Assembly: GCF_002043005.1 (NCBI RefSeq)
Contig: NZ_CP020330.1
Coordinates: forward strand, 1,754,001-1,818,000
Direction of reading: 5' to 3'
DNA: 64,000 nucleotides
From: Martelella mediterranea DSM 17316
GTDB lineage: Bacteria > Pseudomonadota > Alphaproteobacteria > Rhizobiales > Rhizobiaceae
The stretch's first letter is position 1. Each line of letters starts with the position of its first letter. The position numbers were made by a program, and so were the translations under genes. The notes under the pieces are model-generated. The model saw only the letters and a list, made by a program, of their open reading frames with translations. It was not told where the DNA came from and ran no database searches. Of the stretch, positions 19,873-29,065 are shown piece after piece.

Positions 19873-20751
19873 TCAACCGCCGAAGCGTGGTTCGGGAAGT
19901 CCCTTTATCCCCAGCCCCGTGATTGCGAACAGACTTCCGCGCAGAACGCCGTCGCCGGGAAAGCGCGGCAGCGGGGGCTTGGCCATCGAGGTGACATAGA
20001 GCACATCGAGGTTCGGCCCGCCGAACTGTACACTGGTTACCTTCTTCACCGGCATTGCGATCTCGCGGTCGAGCGTGCCGTCCGGAGCGTAGCGGCAGAG
20101 CCGTCCGTCGTAGACCAGCGCCAGCCAGTAATAGCCCTCGGCGTCGACGGTTGCCCCATCCGCCGCGCCGCCGGTCGCGGTGTCGACCTTCGCAAAGGTC
20201 CGCCGGTTCGAAACGGCGCCGGTCTCGATATCGTAGTCATAGGCCCAGACCTCGCCGGTCCAGGTGTCGGTGAAATAGAAGGTTCTGTCGTCCGGCGAGA
20301 AACACGGTCCGTTCGAGCAGATGATGCCGTCATCGACCTTGGTGACGCTCAGATCCGGATCGACACGGTAGAGCGCGCCTTTCGGGCCCTCTTCCATCAT
20401 GTCCATGGAGCCGGCGAAGAACCGTCCCCTACGGTCGCATTTGCCGTCATTAAGACGGGTGGTATCCATTCCCGGCTCGGGGTCGTGCAACAACTGGCAG
20501 TCGCCGCTTTCGAAATCCAGCAGATGGAAGCCCTTGTCCAGCGACACGATGGCGCCGGAGCCGTCCTTGCGCAACGCCATGGATCCGATCTTGCCCGGCA
20601 CGTCCCAGGCGCGCAACTCGGTGCCTTCGGCGGTGCAACGGAATACCCGTCCGTCCATCGAGTCGATGAAATAGAGCCGCTGGCTCTCCAGGTCCCAGAC
20701 CGGGCCTTCGCCCAGCGTGGTCTTCACGTCCAGCAGAATGTCGATCTTCAT
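19873..20751 (-). CDS. SMP-30/gluconolactonase family lactone hydrolase
   Basis: 292 residues of the six-bladed SMP-30/regucalcin propeller. LGEGPVWDLESQRLYFIDSM gives the first metal Glu, TRLNDGKCDRRGRFFAGSM the Asn-Asp pair, and ICSNGPCFSPDDRTFYFTDT a further Asn; the last metal Asp is expected in GATVDAEGYYW. These enzymes hydrolyse sugar lactones to aldonic acids with a divalent metal. GGGAGGAAG precedes the start. Last gene of a seven-gene minus-strand catabolic unit (19.9-28.2 kb), 17 bases after the BKACE gene. Confidence 0.92.
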   Translation of the reverse strand: MKIDILLDVKTTLGEGPVWDLESQRLYFIDSMDGRVFRCTAEGTELRAWDVPGKIGSMALRKDGSGAIVSLDKGFHLLDFESGDCQLLHDPEPGMDTTRLNDGKCDRRGRFFAGSMDMMEEGPKGALYRVDPDLSVTKVDDGIICSNGPCFSPDDRTFYFTDTWTGEVWAYDYDIETGAVSNRRTFAKVDTATGGAADGATVDAEGYYWLALVYDGRLCRYAPDGTLDREIAMPVKKVTSVQFGGPNLDVLYVTSMAKPPLPRFPGDGVLRGSLFAITGLGIKGLPEPRFGG

Positions 20752-20768
20752 AACCGTCTTCCTCCCTG

Positions 20769-21695
20769 TCAGAAATTCACCGCGTCGCCGCCCTTGAGCG
20801 CGAGCATCGCGCGGGCCTCGTCGGGCGTGGCGATCTCGAGCCCCAACCCCTCGACGAGGGCGCGCGCCTTGACGACCTGCTGGGCGTTGCTCTCCGCGAG
20901 CTTGCCGCGCGCAATCCAGATGCTGTCCTCAAGCCCGACGCGGATATTGCCGCCCATGCTGATCGCCTGCGCGGCGATGCGGAACTGGTCCTTGCCCGCG
21001 CCCAGCACCGACCAGCGGAAATCGCTGCCGAACAGCCGGTCGGCGGTCCGTTTCATGTGCATCACGTCCTCCGGGTGGGTGCCGATGCCGCCCAGAAGCC
21101 CGAACACCGACTGCACGAAGAATGGCGGCTTCACCAGCCCGCGATCGGCGAAATGGGCGAGGTTGTAGAGATGCGAGATGTCGTAGCATTCAAACTCGAA
21201 GCGGGTGCCGTTGCCATAGCAGGTCTCCAGCACATATTCGATATCCTTGAACGAGTTGCGGAACACCAGGTCGCGCGAGCCTTCCAGATGCTCGCGCTCC
21301 CATTCGTGCTTGAACTCCTTGTATTTCGCCAAAAGCGGAAAGAAGCCGAAATTCATCGACCCCATGTTGAGCGAGGCGACCTCGGGCGACCACCGTGCGG
21401 CCGGTTTGGTGCGCTCGTCCACGGTCATGTAGGGCGAACCGCCGGTGGTGATATTCACGACCGCGTTGGTCGACTGCTTGATGCGGCCGAGAAAGGGCGT
21501 GAAGGCTTCCGGCGACTGATCGGGCTTGCCGGTCTTCGGATCGCGCGCATGCAGGTGCAGGATCGCGGCCCCCGCCTCGGCAGCCCCGATGGCGGCCTCG
21601 GCAATCTCGTCGGGGGTGATCGGCAGGTATTGCGACATGGTCGGGGTGTGGATGGCGCCGGTCACGGCGCAGGTAATGATCACTTTGTCAGGCAT
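20769..21695 (-). CDS. Beta-keto acid cleavage enzyme (BKACE, former DUF849)
   Basis: 308 residues from ATG 21695. IITCAVTGAIHTPTMSQYLP, AAILHLHARDPKTGKPDQSPE and VVNITTGGSPYMTVDER carry the zinc-binding HLHAR and the N-terminal catalytic features of the Kce/BKACE family; GSDFRWSVLGAGKDQFRIAAQA and GNIRVGLEDS are the C-terminal signatures. BKACEs exchange the acetyl part of a 3-keto acid with acetyl-CoA, giving acetoacetate and a new acyl-CoA. The neighbours suggest that a 3-keto sugar acid or similar compound is the substrate (inference). Confidence 0.93.
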   Translation of the reverse strand: MPDKVIITCAVTGAIHTPTMSQYLPITPDEIAEAAIGAAEAGAAILHLHARDPKTGKPDQSPEAFTPFLGRIKQSTNAVVNITTGGSPYMTVDERTKPAARWSPEVASLNMGSMNFGFFPLLAKYKEFKHEWEREHLEGSRDLVFRNSFKDIEYVLETCYGNGTRFEFECYDISHLYNLAHFADRGLVKPPFFVQSVFGLLGGIGTHPEDVMHMKRTADRLFGSDFRWSVLGAGKDQFRIAAQAISMGGNIRVGLEDSIWIARGKLAESNAQQVVKARALVEGLGLEIATPDEARAMLALKGGDAVNF

Positions 21696-21699
21696 GGTC

Positions 21700-22641
21700 T
21701 CAGTCTCCGATTTCGTCTGCGGCGCGCCGTTTGTGGGCGGCAAGTGCCATGAGCCGCCGGTCACGCCAGGCTTGCCGGTCGGCGATGTTTTCTGCTGGGA
21801 GCGCGGCGCGGCGCTCTGCCTCGATGCGGTCCAGCACCGCCCCGCGCCAGTCGGCGGGACGCTGCTCGGAAAGGCCGTCATAAATGCCGGCATAGCGTTC
21901 GACATATTGCCGCACGCCCTTAGGGGCGTTGAGGTCGATCGTCTCGAACGGGCCGATGAACGACCAGCGCAGGGCAAGTCCCTCGCTGAGGCCGATGTCG
22001 ATGTCCTCCGCGCTGGCATAGCCGTCGGCAACCAGCCGGAAGGCCTCATGCAACAGCGCACCCTGCATCCGGTTCATGACGAAGCCATCGATCTCCTTTT
22101 GCATGACGATGGGGCGCATCCCGGCGTCGCGCAGCATGGTCGCCGTGCGCTCGACCAGCGCCGGATCGGTCCATGGCGCGGGCACCAGCTCCGCCGCCGG
22201 GACAAGATAGGCGGGATTGATCGGGTGGTTGACCATGACCCGGTGACGCCCCGCAAGCCCCTCGGAGATCGCCGAGGGCAGCAGGGCGGATGACGACGAG
22301 GCGAGTACGGTTTCCGGCCCCGCGATCGCGTCAAGCAGCGCGAAGATGGCGCGCTTCACGCCGATTTCCTCGAATGTGCTCTCCTGCACGTGTTCCGCTC
22401 CGTCCAGCGCTTCTTCGAGCGTGGCGGCGGGGCGGATGCGCGCAAGCGCGTCCTCGGGATCACAATCGATAAGACCAAGCCGGCCCAGCTCAGGCAACAT
22501 CTTTGCGGCAAAGGCGCGGGCGGCATGGGGCGCTTCGGCGTTCTCGTCCCAGAGCCGCACCTCGTGGCCGGCGCGGGCGAAGACGATGGACCAGGCGCGG
22601 CCGATCAGGCCGGCGCCGATGCAGGCGACGGGGGCGGGCAT
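21700..22641 (-). CDS. 3-hydroxyacyl-CoA dehydrogenase-like NAD enzyme (carnitine/gulonate dehydrogenase type)
   Basis: 313 residues. The NAD site is ACIGAGLIGRAWSIVFARAGHEV, then ESTFEEIGVKRAIFALLD, SSSSALLPSAISEGLAGRHRVMVNHP (catalytic Ser and His) and KEIDGFVMNRMQGALLHEAFRLV. This is the branch that holds L-carnitine dehydrogenase and lambda-crystallin/L-gulonate 3-dehydrogenase, which oxidise free 3-hydroxy acids to 3-keto acids rather than CoA esters. It would supply the substrate of the BKACE enzyme encoded just downstream. No thioesterase domain is fused, unlike some carnitine dehydrogenases. The start overlaps the SDR stop by one base. Confidence 0.9.
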   Translation of the reverse strand: MPAPVACIGAGLIGRAWSIVFARAGHEVRLWDENAEAPHAARAFAAKMLPELGRLGLIDCDPEDALARIRPAATLEEALDGAEHVQESTFEEIGVKRAIFALLDAIAGPETVLASSSSALLPSAISEGLAGRHRVMVNHPINPAYLVPAAELVPAPWTDPALVERTATMLRDAGMRPIVMQKEIDGFVMNRMQGALLHEAFRLVADGYASAEDIDIGLSEGLALRWSFIGPFETIDLNAPKGVRQYVERYAGIYDGLSEQRPADWRGAVLDRIEAERRAALPAENIADRQAWRDRRLMALAAHKRRAADEIGD

Positions 22642-23435
22642 CACAGCGTCTCCACATTGCCGTCGACGGGGAAGCTCTGCCCCGACAGGTTGCGTCCGGT
22701 ATCGGCGATCAGGAAGGCGGCCATATCGGCGACATCCTCCGGCGGGGTCATGCGCCGCAGCGAGACGTTGGACAGGTAGCGCTCGGTCATCGCCTCGTGG
22801 CTGACGCCGGTCTGCTCGGCGCGGGCGGCGATCACCTTTTCGATGCGCGGCCCGGCGACGATGCCGGGCAGGATGGCATTGGCCCGGATATTGTCGGGAC
22901 CCAGCTCCTTGGCAAGGCTCTGGGTGAAGCCCACGACGCCCCACTTGGCCGAGGCGTAGGGCGTGCGAAAGGCGTAGCCGAACCTGCCTGCGGAGGAGGA
23001 CATATTGACGATGGCCCCACCGCCCGCCGCGCGCAGCATCGGCACGGCATAATGGGTGCAGAGGAACTGCCCGGTCAGGCAGATATCGATGCAGCGTCGC
23101 CAGTCGGCGGTTGATATCGTATCGACGCCGCCGGTCGGGCCGGCGATCCCGGCATTGTTGACCAGCGCATCGAGCCCGCTCATGCCGGTCTCGATGGCCT
23201 TGAAGAATGCCGCGACCTCGGCCTCGGCCGAGACGTCGGCCAGCATCGCGACCTCGGCGCCAAGTTCGGCGGCGGCAGCCTCCAGCGCTGCTGGATCCAC
23301 GTCACAGATCGCCAGCCGGGCGCCCTGGCGGGCGAGCTCGCGGGCGATGCAGAGGCCGATTCCGCCTGCGCCTGCGCTGATCGCGATGCGTTTTCCGGAA
23401 AGGCCGGGCAAAATCATGCGGGGGGTGTCGTTCAT
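22641..23435 (-). CDS. Short-chain dehydrogenase/reductase (SDR)
   Basis: 264 residues with a classical SDR layout: GKRIAISAGAGGIGLCIARE (nucleotide site), DALVNNAGIAGPTG (NNAG), IVNMSSSAGRFGYAFRTPYASAKWGV (Ser, Tyr, Lys catalytic set) and ANAILPGIVAGPRIEKV. Asp near the end of strand 2 (LAICDVD) predicts NAD rather than NADP. In this operon with a lactonase it may oxidise a sugar to its lactone (inference). Spaced 11 bases after the permease gene. Confidence 0.91.
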   Translation of the reverse strand: MNDTPRMILPGLSGKRIAISAGAGGIGLCIARELARQGARLAICDVDPAALEAAAAELGAEVAMLADVSAEAEVAAFFKAIETGMSGLDALVNNAGIAGPTGGVDTISTADWRRCIDICLTGQFLCTHYAVPMLRAAGGGAIVNMSSSAGRFGYAFRTPYASAKWGVVGFTQSLAKELGPDNIRANAILPGIVAGPRIEKVIAARAEQTGVSHEAMTERYLSNVSLRRMTPPEDVADMAAFLIADTGRNLSGQSFPVDGNVETL

Positions 23436-23446
23436 GGCAATCTCCT

Positions 23447-25504
23447 TCATTCGCGCAGGGCGATAACGGCCATCAGGATGACGAGACCGAAGAATACGGA
23501 TCGGAAGGCAAAGGGCAGTGCGGTGCCCGCAAGCAGCGTCTGCATCGCTGTGAGCAGCAGCGCGCCGCCCAGCATGCCGGCGTAATGCCCGCGTCCTCCG
23601 GTGATCAGCGCGCCGCCGACCACCACGACGGCGATCGAGGGCAGCAGATAGTCGTCGCCCATGCCCAGGCTCGCCTGTCCGGAAAAGCCTGCAAGCAATA
23701 TGCCCACCAGCGCGGCGCAAAGCGCCGACAGTATGTAGACCGAGACGATCACCCGCCCGCTTCGCACGCCCGACAGACGCGCGGCGAGCGCACTATTGCC
23801 GACGGCATAAACGTGGCGACCGAAGACGGTACGTCCCAGAAGCATGATCGCCAGCGCAGCGAAGGCGATCATGAACAGGATAACCGGGGTCACGCCAAGG
23901 ACCTTCCCGGTCATCAGCCAGCGCAGCGCGGGCGGGGCAAAGCCCGCCGGCGTGCCGCCGGACCAGATCAGCGCCGCGCCCTGCAGGATGCCGTTCATCG
24001 CCAGCGTGACCACGATCGGCGAAAGCCCCAGCGCCACCACGCCGAGCCCGTTCGCCAGCCCGATCAGCGCCGCCACCGCGAACACCACCGGCAGTGCGAC
24101 CAGAAGACCTGCGTCCTGGCCGCCGACCAACCCCGTCATCAGCACACCCGACAGCGCGATGCACCATGGCAGCGACAGATCGAGACCACCGGTCAGGATC
24201 ACCGCGCCCTGTCCCAGCGCCAGGATGGCGAGGAAGCTGGACAGAACCAGGAGTGCGTCCCAGTAGCGCCAACCTGTGAACACGCCTCCGAGCATCAGTT
24301 GCGTCGCGATCAGCACCAGCGCGAGGCATATCCAGGCTGGAAGCGCATGGCGCAGCGTCGCGCCATACCGTTGCATGAAGGTGAGTTTCGGCGCGGTTGC
24401 GGAAGGTTGCGTGAAAGCAAGTCTGTGGTCCGCCGTAGCACGCTGCGATACCAGCCAGCCCTTGCGGCGGGCGGCGAGCGCGTCCTTCAGCTCGCCAAGG
24501 CGGTGCGAAAGGGGGCTGTCCTTGCTCAGCGAGCCCGCCAGCACAGCAACCAGCAACACAGCGCTTTCGGCAATGGTCGCGTAATAGGCAGAAACGTTGA
24601 GCGACAGCAGCAGGTTAACAACGATCATCAGGATATAGGCTCCGAGGATCGTGCCGGGAATACCGCCCTTGCCACCACCGAGCCGGGTACCGCCAATAAC
24701 AACGGCGGCAAAGGTTGGCAGCAGCAGCGCGTTGCCGACCAGCGGGTCGCCGCTGCCCGTCTGGGCGCTGACGAACACTCCGGCCAGACCGTAGAGCCCG
24801 CCTGCAAGTATGTATGTGAAGAACGTGACGGTGCGGGTTCTGAGCCCCGTCGCCCGCGCCGCCTCGGGATCGCTGCCCACAGCAAACAGCGCCACGCCGA
24901 ATGCCGTGCGCTTGAGCCAGAGCCACGCCAGGATCAGAACGCCAAGCAGGGTCAGCGGCGCAGGCAACAGGCCGGGCAGGGTGTCGCCGAGATAGACCGC
25001 TGCCATCGACGGCGCGACGAAACCGCCGGGTGTCGCCATGATCAGCAGGGTCAGCCCCTGGACGATGAACATGACTGCCAGCGTCACCACGATCGGCTGA
25101 AGGCGCATGAAGGCGACGAAAAACCCGTTCACCGCACCGACGCCCATGCCGACGGTGATGCCAATCGCGGTCCAGAGCGGAACGGAAGCCTCCATGTTCA
25201 CCGGGTCCATCGCGGTTGCCAGTACCGCGTTGACCAGCGACACCACGGCGCCCGCCGAAAGGTCGAACCCGCCGGAAAGGATCACCAGCGTCTGCCCGGC
25301 AGCGGCGATGGCGGTCGTGGCGCCGCCGCTGGCGAGAAAGGAAATATCGAAATAGCTCAGAGGGTACGGGCTGAGAAAGCTGTTCAGCAGCATCAGGCCG
25401 GCAAACACAAGGGCGGCAACAATGACGGCCTGGCTGCGTTTCAGGCTGCGCAGGGCTGTCAGGCCGCCGGCACGCGATGTGGAGGCAAGAGTCTGGTCGG
25501 TCAT
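23447..25504 (-). CDS. Double-length RbsC-type sugar ABC permease (two fused permease units)
   Basis: 685 residues, about twice the usual 320-340 of a ribose-type permease. Two homologous halves are joined head to tail. Each half carries the family signature: GQTLVILSGGFDLSAGAVVSL near residue 70 and LGQGAVILTGGLDLSLPWCIAL near residue 430. A hydrophilic linker of about 60 residues (KDSPLSHRLGELKDALAARR onward) separates them. One polypeptide would thus form the whole pore that is normally made of two subunits. The start overlaps the ATPase stop (ATGA), so stoichiometry with the single double-domain ATPase is set by coupling. Confidence 0.92.
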   Translation of the reverse strand: MTDQTLASTSRAGGLTALRSLKRSQAVIVAALVFAGLMLLNSFLSPYPLSYFDISFLASGGATTAIAAAGQTLVILSGGFDLSAGAVVSLVNAVLATAMDPVNMEASVPLWTAIGITVGMGVGAVNGFFVAFMRLQPIVVTLAVMFIVQGLTLLIMATPGGFVAPSMAAVYLGDTLPGLLPAPLTLLGVLILAWLWLKRTAFGVALFAVGSDPEAARATGLRTRTVTFFTYILAGGLYGLAGVFVSAQTGSGDPLVGNALLLPTFAAVVIGGTRLGGGKGGIPGTILGAYILMIVVNLLLSLNVSAYYATIAESAVLLVAVLAGSLSKDSPLSHRLGELKDALAARRKGWLVSQRATADHRLAFTQPSATAPKLTFMQRYGATLRHALPAWICLALVLIATQLMLGGVFTGWRYWDALLVLSSFLAILALGQGAVILTGGLDLSLPWCIALSGVLMTGLVGGQDAGLLVALPVVFAVAALIGLANGLGVVALGLSPIVVTLAMNGILQGAALIWSGGTPAGFAPPALRWLMTGKVLGVTPVILFMIAFAALAIMLLGRTVFGRHVYAVGNSALAARLSGVRSGRVIVSVYILSALCAALVGILLAGFSGQASLGMGDDYLLPSIAVVVVGGALITGGRGHYAGMLGGALLLTAMQTLLAGTALPFAFRSVFFGLVILMAVIALRE

Positions 25505-27060
25505 GCCGGTATCTCCTGCCGGTCGCGGGGCGTTGAAATGTGGAGTGGATCGCTGCCCCCGAGCGTCGCTTCCAGGATGGCGTTCTCGGTCAGGCTGTCG
25601 CCTTCAAGCCAGCGGCTCACGCGGCCCTCGTAGAGCACACCGACCCTGTCGCACAGATGCACCAGTTCGGGGATTTCGGTTGAATGCAGCAGGACGGAGC
25701 CGCCCGCATCGGTATAGGCACGCAACAGCGCGTAGAGTTGTTCCTTGGTGCCAACATCGATGCCGCGCGTGGGATCGAAGAGCAGCAGGATGCGGCTTTG
25801 CGCCACCAGCCATTTCGCCAGCACGATCTTCTGCTGGTTGCCGCCCGAAAATGCGCCGGCAGACAGATAATGCGCACGTCCGTCGACCTCGACGGCGGCA
25901 AAGGCGCCTGCGGCGGCGCGCGCCTCGGCGGCATCATCCAGCAGCGGGCCGCGACGGAAACGGTCCACAACCGGCAGGCTGGCGTTCTGCCGCCCGGAAA
26001 GCTTGAGAAACAGTCCCTGCGTCTTGCGTTCCTCGGGCACAAGGCCAATGGCGACGGATGGATGCAGCGCATCGGCGGGCGAGCGCAGGTGCAGGGGAGC
26101 GCCATCCAGTTCGATATGGCCTGCATGCAGGTGTTCCTGCCCGAACAGCGCCGAGAACAGCGCTTCCTGCCCCATGCCCTGAAGGCCGGCAATGCCCAGG
26201 ATCTCGCCCCGGTGCAACGCGATGTCGGCGTCCTTGAGCTTCGGCCCGGCCGAAAGGGCGCGCGTGGCCAGCGCCGGCGTTTCGCCATTCCTGTCGCGCG
26301 GGGGGCGCGGTGGCGGAAAAGCGCTTTCGACCGAACGCCCGATGATCATTTCGACCACCTCGCTATCGGTGACCTCGTCGACCTTCGCCGAATGCACCGA
26401 GCGGCCATTGCGCAGGATGGTGAGCGTGTCGCAAAAAGCCCGAACCTCGGGCAGGCGGTGCGAGATGAACAGCACCGTGATCTCCTGCGCCGCGGCATCT
26501 GCAATGATGCGCCCGAGCCAGTCGACGTCGCTGCCCGACAGGGCCGAGGTCGGTTCGTCCAGCAACAGGATCCGCGGCTTGCGATAGAGCGTGCGGGCGA
26601 TCTCGATTTTCTGGCGCACAGCGAGGGTCAGTTCGCTGGCATGCGCATCAAGGTCAACGGCGAGATCCAGCGCTTCGAAATGGGCGGATACGGCGCGGCG
26701 GGTGCGGCCGCGGTTCAGCGTGCCGAGCGGCGTCCAGGGCGCGCGCGGCAAAAGCATGTTGTCGAGCACCGTCAGGTCGGGCACCAGGGTCAGTTCCTGA
26801 AAGGCGGTCTGCACGCCCGCCGCATGGGCGTCGCGCGGCGAGCGCAACGCGACCTCCCGCCCGTCGATGCGGATGCTGCCGGCGTCCGGCCGCACGAGGC
26901 CCGACAGCAGCTTCATCGTGGTCGACTTTCCTGCGCCGTTTTCGCCCAGCAACGCATGAACGCGGCCTTTGGCAACGGAAAATTCGACTTGGTCATTGGC
27001 CACGGTTGGCCCGTAGGCCTTGGTCAGGCCGGAGACCGCGACAGCGGGTGCGGATGACAT
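25501..27060 (-). CDS. Sugar ABC transporter ATP-binding protein (RbsA/MglA type)
   Basis: 519 residues with two ABC domains, as in ribose and galactose importers. Domain 1 has GENGAGKSTTMKLLSG and a Walker B ILLLDEPTSALSG. Domain 2 keeps a degenerate Walker A (GLQGMGQEALFSALFG), the signature SGGNQQKIVLAKWL and RILLLFDPTRGIDVG. The first domain's signature, ELTLAVRQKIEIART, lacks the usual LSxGxxQ, and Walker B of domain 2 has FDPTRG, both common in this class. It powers import together with the fused permease and the binding protein. Confidence 0.93.
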   Translation of the reverse strand: MSSAPAVAVSGLTKAYGPTVANDQVEFSVAKGRVHALLGENGAGKSTTMKLLSGLVRPDAGSIRIDGREVALRSPRDAHAAGVQTAFQELTLVPDLTVLDNMLLPRAPWTPLGTLNRGRTRRAVSAHFEALDLAVDLDAHASELTLAVRQKIEIARTLYRKPRILLLDEPTSALSGSDVDWLGRIIADAAAQEITVLFISHRLPEVRAFCDTLTILRNGRSVHSAKVDEVTDSEVVEMIIGRSVESAFPPPRPPRDRNGETPALATRALSAGPKLKDADIALHRGEILGIAGLQGMGQEALFSALFGQEHLHAGHIELDGAPLHLRSPADALHPSVAIGLVPEERKTQGLFLKLSGRQNASLPVVDRFRRGPLLDDAAEARAAAGAFAAVEVDGRAHYLSAGAFSGGNQQKIVLAKWLVAQSRILLLFDPTRGIDVGTKEQLYALLRAYTDAGGSVLLHSTEIPELVHLCDRVGVLYEGRVSRWLEGDSLTENAILEATLGGSDPLHISTPRDRQEIPA

Positions 27061-27123
27061 GGCGTCCTCGAGAATGCTGTGAAGGGGTCCGGCGGCAACC
27101 TGCCGCCGGATCGGGGCGCGGGA

Positions 27124-28236
27124 TCACCGCTCGGGCTGGCCCACAAGCGCGGCATTCAACCCGAGCTGCGGCAGCTCTTCCGAGAAGATCGAGGCGAACC
27201 AGCCCGGGTTTGAAACCAGACTTGGCTGGAAGGCGTTGCAGCCGGCCTTCTGTTCTTCCCAGCTACCGGTTTCGCACAATTCGACCGTGTCGTTGGTGAC
27301 CAGCGGCAGCGGCAGGGTGGTGTGCTGCGTGATATCGGTCCCGTCGAGCTTGTCGACCGCCAGCTTAAGCGCCAGCGCGCCGGAATAGGGCGGCGAGGCA
27401 TAGGAAATCCGCGCCGCGCCCATAGGTGCATAAGGCGTTGCGGCGCCGTCAACTTCGGCGTTGGCCGGCAGCATCTGGATGCGCCCGCCGTTCGAGCCCT
27501 CGCCCGCGCAAGGCAGAAGGTCTTCGGGCGCCTGGCCCGCCTCGAGCTGCATGGCGTTGGCGGTGTAGCAGCCAACCTGCATCCACAGCCCGTCGATATC
27601 GGACCAGTCGCGGGTCGCCATCAGCTTGTTGAGCTCGGTCCGCGCCACCGCCTGGCTCCACATGCCCACGGCCTCGCCGACGATATTGATGCCTGCGTGT
27701 TCAGCGAAGACTTCCTTGGCTGCCGAGGTGCGGGCGGTGTCGACCGATGTTCCGGGAACACCGGTTACCATCACCACGTCGCCTTCGCCGCCCATCTCGT
27801 CGACCAGCCACTCGGCGGTCTTGCGACCCGCTTCGGCCTGATCGATGGTGACGTTATAGGCGCAGGGCTCGGTGATCTCGGCATCGTAGGCGATGATCGT
27901 CACACCGCGCGAGCAGGCGCTGCGCACCACGCTGTTCAACGCCGTGGGCGAGATCGGGTAGACCACGATTGCATCGGCGCCGGCTTGCACCATGGCATTG
28001 ATCTGCTGGATCTGGCGCTGGGCATTGGGGCCGGCAACCTGCACCTCAAGGTCGACGCGGTCCTTGTAATCCTCGGATGCGGCCAGCGCCTTGATCATGT
28101 TCGAGGCTTCGGCCTGCCAGTCATTGCCGATGTAGCTCATCGACAGAAATATCTTATAGGGCTCGGCGTCCTGCGCCTGCACTGCCCCCGCAAGACCGAT
28201 GGCGCAGGCTGCGCCGGCTAATAAACGTCCAATCAT
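27124..28236 (-). CDS. Periplasmic sugar-type ABC substrate-binding protein
   Basis: 370 residues from ATG 28236, preceded by GGGAGGAAG. A signal peptide (LLAGAACAIGLAGAVQAQ) is followed by FLSMSYIGNDWQAEASNMIKA, MVQAGADAIVVYPISPTALN and VVMVTGVPGTSVDTARTSAA, the periplasmic-binding-protein type 1 pattern. Four further cysteines (SACSRG, PCAYN, VGCYTAN, LPCAGEG) could form disulphides. First gene of the catabolic unit; the substrate is not shown by sequence, but the enzymes downstream point to a sugar, polyol or sugar-acid-like compound. Confidence 0.9.
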   Translation of the reverse strand: MIGRLLAGAACAIGLAGAVQAQDAEPYKIFLSMSYIGNDWQAEASNMIKALAASEDYKDRVDLEVQVAGPNAQRQIQQINAMVQAGADAIVVYPISPTALNSVVRSACSRGVTIIAYDAEITEPCAYNVTIDQAEAGRKTAEWLVDEMGGEGDVVMVTGVPGTSVDTARTSAAKEVFAEHAGINIVGEAVGMWSQAVARTELNKLMATRDWSDIDGLWMQVGCYTANAMQLEAGQAPEDLLPCAGEGSNGGRIQMLPANAEVDGAATPYAPMGAARISYASPPYSGALALKLAVDKLDGTDITQHTTLPLPLVTNDTVELCETGSWEEQKAGCNAFQPSLVSNPGWFASIFSEELPQLGLNAALVGQPER

Positions 28237-28295
28237 GGCTTCCTCCCTTGGTAGGCGACTCTCCAAGTCGCCCCACAGGAGTTAAGATTAAATAT

Positions 28296-28308
28296 CTTTG
28301 ATCAAAAG
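28296..28308. promoter_or_regulatory. Palindromic candidate GntR operator
   Basis: CTTTGATCAAAAG contains the perfect 10-bp palindrome TTTGATCAAA in the divergent promoter region between the binding-protein gene and the GntR/FCD regulator. It lies in an AT-rich stretch that suits promoter elements for both directions. Confidence 0.5.
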
Positions 28309-28372
28309 TCAAAACCTCTTTCTCTTTGACGGGAAATTTCGTAGCTTTGCATGTGGAACAAGAGGATTCACC

Positions 28373-29065
28373 ATGCTCGAAAACGTGACGCCGTTGAAAA
28401 AGGAGACGCTTCAGGCGCTGGTGCACCAGCGCCTGTGCGACCTGATCCTCCAGGGCGAGATCGCTCCGGGAGAATCGGTCACCGTGGCGAGCATCGCCAA
28501 GGCGCTGAATGTCAGTCCGATGCCGGTGCGCGAGGCGATTTCCCGGCTAATGGCGCTCGGAGCGCTGACGGTCGTGTCCGGTCGGTCGATCGGCGTGCCG
28601 CTGCTCGGCGTGCGACAGCTTGAGGACCTGCGTAAAGTCCGCTCCGAGATCGAGGCCTCGGCCGTCACCTGGGCTGTCGCGAACCGGACGCCGGCGTTCG
28701 AGGCGAAACTCGAGGCCTTGCTGGAACGCATGGAAGATGCTGAAGCCAAGGGGCAGGTGCGCGACTTCATCCACCGCAATTACGAATTCCACTTCGCGAT
28801 CTACACGCAGGCGGGCTCCGCGCTCATGCTTGAGATCATTGGCACGCTCTGGCTCCGGATCAATCCGCAGTTCCACCTGCTGCAACGCCATGGTCACTAC
28901 AAGGCGTCGAACCGCCAACATCGCGCTCTGTATGAGCGAATCTGCTCGGGCGATGCCGGGGGCGCGGTCTCCGCCCTGCGGGAGGACATTGACAGCGCGT
29001 ATGAAGTGCTCCTCAAAACGCTGCAAGAAAGCGGGCCCCGATCTGATCACACTCTGGCGCAGTAG
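28373..29065 (+). CDS. GntR-family regulator with FCD domain
   Basis: 230 residues from ATG 28373, with AGAGGA just upstream. The winged helix is LVHQRLCDLILQGEIAPGES, VASIAKALNVSPMPVREAIS and RLMALGALTV. The all-helical FCD ligand domain follows, with the metal-type residues in DFIHRNYEFHFAIYTQAG and SNRQHRALYERICSGD. FCD regulators bind organic acids. It is divergent from the seven-gene unit and is probably its repressor, with a sugar acid or keto acid as inducer (inference). Confidence 0.92.
   Translation: MLENVTPLKKETLQALVHQRLCDLILQGEIAPGESVTVASIAKALNVSPMPVREAISRLMALGALTVVSGRSIGVPLLGVRQLEDLRKVRSEIEASAVTWAVANRTPAFEAKLEALLERMEDAEAKGQVRDFIHRNYEFHFAIYTQAGSALMLEIIGTLWLRINPQFHLLQRHGHYKASNRQHRALYERICSGDAGGAVSALREDIDSAYEVLLKTLQESGPRSDHTLAQ

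Follow-up and report, generated by a model that had tools for sequence, protein, structure and literature searches.

A Martelella mediterranea operon proposed to encode a variant of the oxidative 2-deoxyribonate pathway

An oxidative route for deoxyribose and deoxyribonate has been described in Pseudomonas simiae WCS417, which carries it in the cluster PS417_07240-07265 (Price et al. 2019, PMC6365646). According to the passages of that paper on this cluster, mutant fitness shows that its GntR regulator, short-chain dehydrogenase/reductase (SDR), beta-keto acid cleavage enzyme (BKACE), lactonase and two major facilitator superfamily (MFS) transporters matter for deoxyribose use, and most of the same genes matter for deoxyribonate too, the lactonase being more important for deoxyribose. 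The SDR converted deoxyribonate to ketodeoxyribonate in vitro and was inactive on deoxyribose, and cleavage of the product to glyceryl-CoA and acetoacetate was proposed there without direct evidence (PMC6365646). The same passages report that Klebsiella michiganensis uses a CoA-linked form of the route, in which the lactonase and both MFS transporters are homologous to those of P. simiae and a glycerate kinase takes part, the MFS pairs of the two organisms being more than 50% identical (PMC6365646), and part of another paper acknowledges a glyceryl-CoA hydrolase as missing in the pathway (PMC9007349). Here we describe a unit of eight genes in a 64,000-nucleotide stretch of the Martelella mediterranea DSM 17316 genome (NZ_CP020330.1, positions 1,754,001 to 1,818,000; the window), which combines a GntR regulator, an SDR, a BKACE and an SMP-30 lactonase with a second dehydrogenase and an importer of the CUT2 family.

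We consider it probable that this unit encodes a variant form of the oxidative pathway for 2-deoxyribonate (2-deoxyribonolactone), for which we infer the substrate, the order of steps, the stereochemistry and the regulation. In the proposed route, the ATP-binding cassette (ABC) importer would take up a derivative of 2-deoxypentose, the lactone being the likeliest (ahead of the sugar or the acid), SMP-30 would open the lactone to 2-deoxypentonate, and the SDR would oxidise C3, the lambda-crystallin-type dehydrogenase doing likewise on the opposite C3 epimer. BKACE and acetyl-CoA would then give acetoacetate and glyceryl-CoA. Hydrolysis of glyceryl-CoA would yield glycerate, which a kinase would convert to 2-phosphoglycerate, and acetoacetate would be turned into acetyl-CoA via a CoA-transferase and a thiolase; candidates for the kinase, the hydrolase and the CoA-transferase are encoded elsewhere in the window genome. 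GntR would control the unit through a palindrome with a TGATCA core. An earlier reading of the same DNA, the original prediction, had proposed an undescribed pathway joining a lactone step to BKACE cleavage. The joining of the two steps in one catabolic unit is supported by our analysis; the claim of novelty is not, since the passages cited above report a route with lactonase, SDR, BKACE and GntR, with genetics and partial biochemistry (PMC6365646).

Kinship of the unit with deoxyribonate clusters

All eight genes that the original prediction had joined into one regulated unit lie where it had placed them, and Pfam scores far above the cut-off confirmed the main family of each (Table 1), with start codons chosen among those available in each open frame. 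On the minus strand, the dehydrogenase and SDR frames overlap by 1 base and the ATPase and permease frames by 4 bases; the remaining gaps are 4-63 bases, and 133 bases separate the unit from the divergent gntR. Compared with a congener (L171), the eight genes have ratios of nonsynonymous to synonymous substitution rates of 0.02-0.11; compared with Thioclava (L003), the ratios are 0.04-0.14, so the genes are under purifying selection. Scans for promoters and terminators gave matches no more frequent than in shuffled sequence. The operon is real and conserved, and probably functional.

Two loci represent the published clusters in our comparisons. Locus L126 has divergent GntR, SDR, BKACE, SMP-30, MFS and MFS genes, an arrangement that follows the published P. 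simiae locus numbers. Its two MFS proteins share 66% and 55-56% identity with those of the Klebsiella pneumoniae locus L159, which in turn matches the published deoxyribonate cluster of K. michiganensis gene for gene. Both were matched to the published clusters via gene order. The window lactonase is 67% identical to the L126 lactonase and 63% to that of L159. In a tree built by a quick method from 58 of the 88 lactonase rows found (near-duplicates removed), the L126 and L159 lactonases are nested within the main-lactonase clade of the operon, with support of 89 for the whole clade and 85 for their half. We propose from this kinship that the window SMP-30 is a 2-deoxyribonolactonase or the lactonase of a related 2-deoxypentonolactone. 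Its nearest solved chains are 7plb (Smp-30/Cgr1 family protein) and regucalcin, at about 150 bits. Many operons (L028, L036, L055, L092 and others) hold two SMP-30 genes, one per clade, and the second SMP-30 of these relatives takes a separate position in the tree; the pairs are perhaps for 1,4- and 1,5-lactones. A gene with a metallo-beta-lactamase fold lies inside the operon of Caballeronia grimmiae (L161:5374-6120) and of L127 (10491-11285). It is annotated as, or resembles, N-acyl homoserine lactonases (under cut-offs for L127) and may be a second sugar lactonase, not a quorum quencher.

The window BKACE passes the NCBIfam model NF053538 with 550.4 bits against a cut-off of 430, as does the 63% identical L126 BKACE with 548.8, and its H47, H49 and E256 presumably match the zinc ligands. 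BKACE transfers the two-carbon acid end of a keto acid (C1-C2) onto acetyl-CoA. A 3-keto aldonate with a C2 hydroxyl would thus give hydroxyacetoacetate, and acetoacetate would arise only from a 2-deoxy acid. The original prediction, which ran from a sugar or polyol through an aldonic acid to acetoacetate, therefore requires a 2-deoxy substrate, and we rejected an ordinary aldonic acid on these chemical grounds. The proposed reaction of the window enzyme is 2-deoxy-3-keto-pentonate and acetyl-CoA to acetoacetate and glyceryl-CoA. Among related loci, L013, L015 and L020 have BKACEs 80-81% identical to it, flanked by an amidase-like gene (under cut-offs in the profile check, done for L013 alone) and an unassigned 352-aa gene.

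The regulatory region gave a further link. TGATCA occurs in 50 of the 52 measurable divergent gntR/importer gaps among 93 loci screened, where base shuffles would give 2.5, and TTGATCAA in 44 of them; many of these loci are close relatives and not independent. The window form, TTTGATCAAA, is the sole window match at up to one mismatch, which is unremarkable alone given 1.14 matches expected at that tolerance. The published motif GTGATCAC lies in the GntR/SDR gap of L126 (44 of 200 shuffles of the L126 locus hold the 8-mer somewhere), and the Bordetella operons L039 and L059 carry it inside a longer block nearly identical to that of L126. The common TGATCA core links the window operon to the published regulator type, and GntR would regulate the unit through this palindrome.

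The gene set also stays together in other genomes. A BKACE scan of named genomes gave at least 581 relatives. From these the best 80 were taken further; 61 had sufficient flank and 19 cut loci were excluded, a neighbour being counted when tblastn thresholds placed it within 9 kb of BKACE. In 38 of the 61 loci, BKACE has GntR, SDR, the second dehydrogenase, SMP-30 and one or more importer components nearby, so the set co-occurs far beyond chance. Hosts of the full set among these best 80 include Rhizobiales, Rhodobacterales, Rhodovibrionaceae, Bordetella and Vreelandella. Caballeronia grimmiae (L161) and L127 hold the full set in a different order, and its retention through reshuffling argues that the parts act together.

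Table 1. Genes and candidate operator of the proposed deoxyribonate-type unit, in window positions.
Feature	Position	Strand	Support
SMP-30/gluconolactonase-family lactonase	19873..20751	-	Pfam SGL, 277.9 bits
BKACE (DUF849)	20769..21695	-	Pfam BKACE, 361.1 bits (cut-off 24.8)
3HCDH/lambda-crystallin-type dehydrogenase	21700..22641	-	Pfam 3HCDH_N, 144.8 bits
SDR	22641..23435	-	Pfam adh_short_C2, 183.4 bits
Fused double permease, CUT2 ABC importer	23447..25504	-	two BPD_transp_2 stretches in a single 685-aa frame
Double-domain ATPase, CUT2 importer	25501..27060	-	ABC_tran, two stretches
Periplasmic binding protein, RbsB-like fold	27124..28236	-	Peripla_BP_4
Candidate operator palindrome TTTGATCAAA, gntR/importer gap	28297..28306	none	exact match
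GntR/FCD regulator, divergent	28370..29065	+	FCD, 84.2 bits; GntR, 55 bits

Two dehydrogenases and the oxidation at C3

SDR 3-hydroxybutyrate dehydrogenases act on D-3-hydroxy acids, which have the C3 arrangement of 2-deoxy-D-ribonate. Lambda-crystallin, an L-gulonate 3-dehydrogenase, and carnitine dehydrogenase act on the L arrangement. The second dehydrogenase of the unit belongs with the latter: it passes the NCBIfam model PRK06129 (440.7 bits, cut-off 347), and its nearest solved chains are the lambda-crystallin structures 3ado (223.5 bits) and 3f3s.

The original prediction had let the SDR make the lactone and a carnitine/gulonate-type enzyme oxidise C3. Transferred to a 2-deoxy sugar, this would make the SDR a C1 dehydrogenase whose lactone SMP-30 opens, and the lambda-crystallin-type enzyme the sole C3 dehydrogenase ahead of BKACE. 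Such a scheme gives each gene one step, accounts for a sugar importer and asks of the second enzyme a reaction that suits its kin; moreover, there are loci where the second dehydrogenase and BKACE occur with no SDR of this kind nearby (L135, and L082 with a different SDR) or with the SDR on the other strand (L088). We nevertheless think it unlikely. The SDR is found in 55 and the second dehydrogenase in 51 of the 61 full-flank loci; SDR and BKACE without the second dehydrogenase occur in 5 of the 61, the reverse in 1. L024 and L062 lack the second dehydrogenase but have SDR, BKACE, SMP-30 and importer, and clusters of just GntR, SDR, BKACE and an MFS-family gene exist (L084, L090). In an SDR tree (67 of 89 rows found, near-duplicates removed, outgroup added), clusters with and without the second dehydrogenase are interleaved, and the SDR-only loci L005, L007 and L012 adjoin the window SDR. 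Presence of the second dehydrogenase switches 10-11 times on this tree, with at least 5 changes forced by well-supported branches, and is still somewhat clustered (shuffled means 13.8-14.8 changes). The published SDR, in the passages that describe it, oxidises deoxyribonate and is inactive on deoxyribose (PMC6365646). Since some clusters lack the second enzyme, and given the SDR tree and the published activity, the main oxidation of the 2-deoxy acid at C3 is probably the work of the SDR and not of the carnitine-type enzyme. It follows that the unit would encode no C1 dehydrogenase, so the lactone or the acid may be the compound imported. The simplest role for the second dehydrogenase would be that of an L-specific enzyme oxidising the opposite C3 epimer.

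The presence of a carnitine-like dehydrogenase beside a BKACE also raises the reading that the unit acts on L-carnitine or on some other 3-hydroxy acid derived from an amino acid, with SMP-30 and SDR as passengers, as a related dehydrogenase and BKACE act in carnitine breakdown and weak NCBIfam matches exist. We rejected it as highly improbable, in line with the original prediction, which had noted that carnitine breakdown would leave the lactonase and the SDR unexplained. The second dehydrogenase stays far under the carnitine models (166.5 bits against a cut-off of 592; 149.3 against 414), and the second BKACE of the window genome (C1:3478411-3479277, L002) adjoins a 481-aa protein scoring 711 bits in the carnitine 3-dehydrogenase model, above its cut-off of 592, so this separate region is probably the ordinary carnitine locus. 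In addition, the importer is of the sugar-type CUT2 family, and SMP-30 and SDR stay with the set in the 38 loci counted above.

Importer, neighbouring genes and likely products

The sugar-type importer of the original prediction was confirmed as CUT2 by its Peripla_BP_4 binding protein, tandem ATPase and BPD_transp_2 permease. The best NCBIfam matches of the permease are ribose, YjfF and GguB permeases, all under cut-off, and the ATPase is AraG/XylG/AlsA/RbsA-like, under equivalog cut-offs. Sequence and fold searches with the binding protein found the general RbsB/CUT2 fold alone, at 13-23% identity in the rows compared, and these matches name no ligand. The binding protein follows the unit: copies 60-80% identical to it occur in 7 plasmid records, and every one of these also has BKACE and SMP-30 within about 8 kb. 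Among the open-licence PMC papers listed for deoxyribonate, BKACE and related topics, none describes the ABC-importer form in its title or the beginning of its abstract. TRAP-transporter clusters with an SDR, a BKACE and a distant second dehydrogenase were seen in L014, L017, L029, L032 and L178, three of them with a 3-oxoacid CoA-transferase; they are perhaps an acid-importing cousin of the window operon.

Genes next to related operons bear on the products. On Rhizobium ruizarguesonis pRlX3, the operon is followed co-directionally by a chemoreceptor gene and then, at L091:12200-18638, by larA with its cofactor genes (larC, a larE-like gene and larB), a glycerate kinase gene and a gene (L091:12200-13264) for a 354-aa protein of the enoyl-CoA hydratase/isomerase family; further on, past an opposite-strand regulator, lie 3-oxoacid CoA-transferase subunit genes and a thiolase gene. 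An Agrobacterium tumefaciens plasmid has the chemoreceptor, glycerate kinase and same hydrolase-type genes beside the operon. The hydrolase-type protein of the Agrobacterium plasmid passes the 3-hydroxyisobutyryl-CoA hydrolase model (425.9 against 274), and this type of protein is a candidate for the missing glyceryl-CoA hydrolase. Glycerate-kinase-family genes were also found in L017 and L082, and CoA-transferase genes in L014, L017, L022 and L029. As kinase, hydrolase, CoA-transferase and thiolase fit the products acetoacetate and glyceryl-CoA, they point to a 2-deoxy five-carbon acid. Since larA is under the lactate racemase cut-off, its product may racemise a different hydroxy acid, for instance glycerate.

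That two lactonase clades occur in many operons suggests more than one lactone, and the substrate could be a different 2-deoxy compound, an acid or lactone derived for instance from a 2-deoxyhexose or a 2,6-dideoxyhexose, giving tri- or dihydroxybutyryl-CoA and not glyceryl-CoA. We doubt this, as glycerate kinase genes stand in four relatives of the cluster and also in the K. pneumoniae one, where the lactonase shares 63% identity with that of the window, and in view of the lactonase kinship to deoxyribonate-type clusters.

In the window genome itself, the absence of a kinase from the unit, part of the original prediction, holds; some relatives do have a glycerate kinase in the cluster, and the window genome has one, 54% identical, far from the unit at C1:2404855-2406099. 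Elsewhere it also encodes 3-oxoacid CoA-transferase subunits (51% and 44% identical) and a hydrolase (38%). We rejected glycerate kinase as a constant neighbour, as most operons are without one. The lactonase is present in 12 of 247 genomes of the window's family, and kinase matches listed could be placed for 6 of these (G000, G758, G770, G842, G894, G909); in none of the 6 was the kinase near the unit, lying on another contig or about 500 or 630 kb off. In one more, G701 (L174), a distantly related kinase-family gene lies beside the lactonase. A specialised family status of the hydrolase was likewise unsupported: at E <=1e-115, 8 of the 397 genomes examined in the order have matches 55-62% identical to it, and among the 25 plasmid records listed out of 103, copies 52-55% identical occur beyond its two own records. 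These other homologues may be valine-pathway enzymes, and the copy in the two related plasmids may have been co-opted.

The unit looks horizontally mobile. Four of 12 other genomes of the genus carry a 97-98% identical BKACE with the whole unit, and the window-flanking genes searched for were not found in the 3-8 kb flank at any of the four. Among the matches listed, the closest outside the genus are BKACEs of Thioclava (94%) and Vreelandella (92%), Phyllobacterium and Mesorhizobium reaching up to 79%. The seven proteins other than the regulator are 90-98% identical to those of the four congeners (L170-L173) and 77-94% to those of Thioclava and Vreelandella (L003, L004); the regulator is lower, at 64-76%.

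Several observations weigh against a deoxyribonate-type pathway. L126 is a proxy for the P. simiae proteins, chosen by gene order, motif and MFS identity, and the window SDR is only 49% identical to its SDR. The support values of the lactonase clade, 89 and 85 in the quick tree of 58 out of 88 rows, are moderate, and the clade also takes in the long-branched rows L160 (P. oryzihabitans), L162 and L163, with other or unannotated surroundings. The BKACE subgroup is not diagnostic, as copies about 72% identical stand within very different gene sets (L085, L086). The published clusters have MFS importers and not a CUT2 ABC importer. On the product side, larA is under the lactate racemase cut-off (340 against 460), the cluster glycerate-kinase genes miss NCBIfam equivalog cut-offs, and they occur in just four relatives (L017, L082, L083/L091, L093), of which the Rhizobium and the Agrobacterium plasmid are close kin; as 217 of the 247 genomes in the window's family have a kinase of this kind, its neighbourhood may be partly chance. 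Finally, the window genome has deoC, which makes the usual deoxyribose 5-phosphate route possible. Of the divergent BKACE contexts, L086 on a Diaphorobacter sp. HDW4B plasmid places its 72% identical BKACE amid genes for an acyl-CoA dehydrogenase and a CoA ester lyase.

The proposed pathway would extend the 2019 deoxyribonate route to an importer-equipped operon of rhizobia, roseobacters, Bordetella, Caballeronia and Vreelandella, whose transporter genes are likely to import deoxyribonolactone or deoxyribonate. Relative to that pathway, three elements are new: an importer of the ABC type, a second dehydrogenase and, in some relatives, a gene that could supply the glyceryl-CoA hydrolase. 2-Deoxyribonolactone, a deoxyribose derivative, is released from oxidatively damaged DNA. 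As a tentative extension, the operons might form a broad scavenging system for oxidised deoxyribose, in which a high-affinity 2-deoxyribonolactone ABC importer feeds two 3-dehydrogenases of opposite handedness that pass both C3 epimers; extended relatives would add a glyceryl-CoA hydrolase (a 3-hydroxyisobutyryl-CoA hydrolase paralogue) and a LarA-type racemase making both glycerate enantiomers usable, the whole having spread horizontally among alpha-, beta- and gammaproteobacteria.

Comparison with known systems

L-Carnitine degradation shares with the unit a dehydrogenase of the same fold and a BKACE. It has no role for a lactonase, an SDR or a sugar importer, and the window dehydrogenase is under the carnitine cut-offs.

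BKACE15 of Paracoccus denitrificans (PDB 8RIO, 8RIP, 9HNF) is 67% identical to the window BKACE over the 304 aligned pairs compared. E171 and, in older proposals, R254 have been named catalytic in BKACE15 (PMC11961710), and these residues are conserved in the window BKACE as E169 and R252. The genetic context of BKACE15 has been said to suggest degradation of aromatic compounds (PMC11961710).

The K. michiganensis M5al cluster (BWI76_RS23695-23730) is like the window unit in a lactonase of the same clade, placed through the K. pneumoniae counterpart L159, and in the proposed route from glyceryl-CoA to glycerate; it differs in using a CoA synthetase, a hydroxyacyl-CoA dehydrogenase and a thiolase instead of SDR and BKACE, and again in its MFS importers.

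The P. simiae pathway differs from the window unit in having a pair of MFS importers where the window has the CUT2 ABC importer, in having no lambda-crystallin-type dehydrogenase among its named genes, and in relying on a separate molybdoenzyme as deoxyribose dehydrogenase. In both, and likewise in L126, GntR, SDR, BKACE and lactonase stand together; both have a TGATCA-cored palindrome near the regulator, TTTGATCAAA in the window and GTGATCAC in the published form; and in both BKACE would cleave a beta-keto acid, with glyceryl-CoA and acetoacetate as the proposed products.

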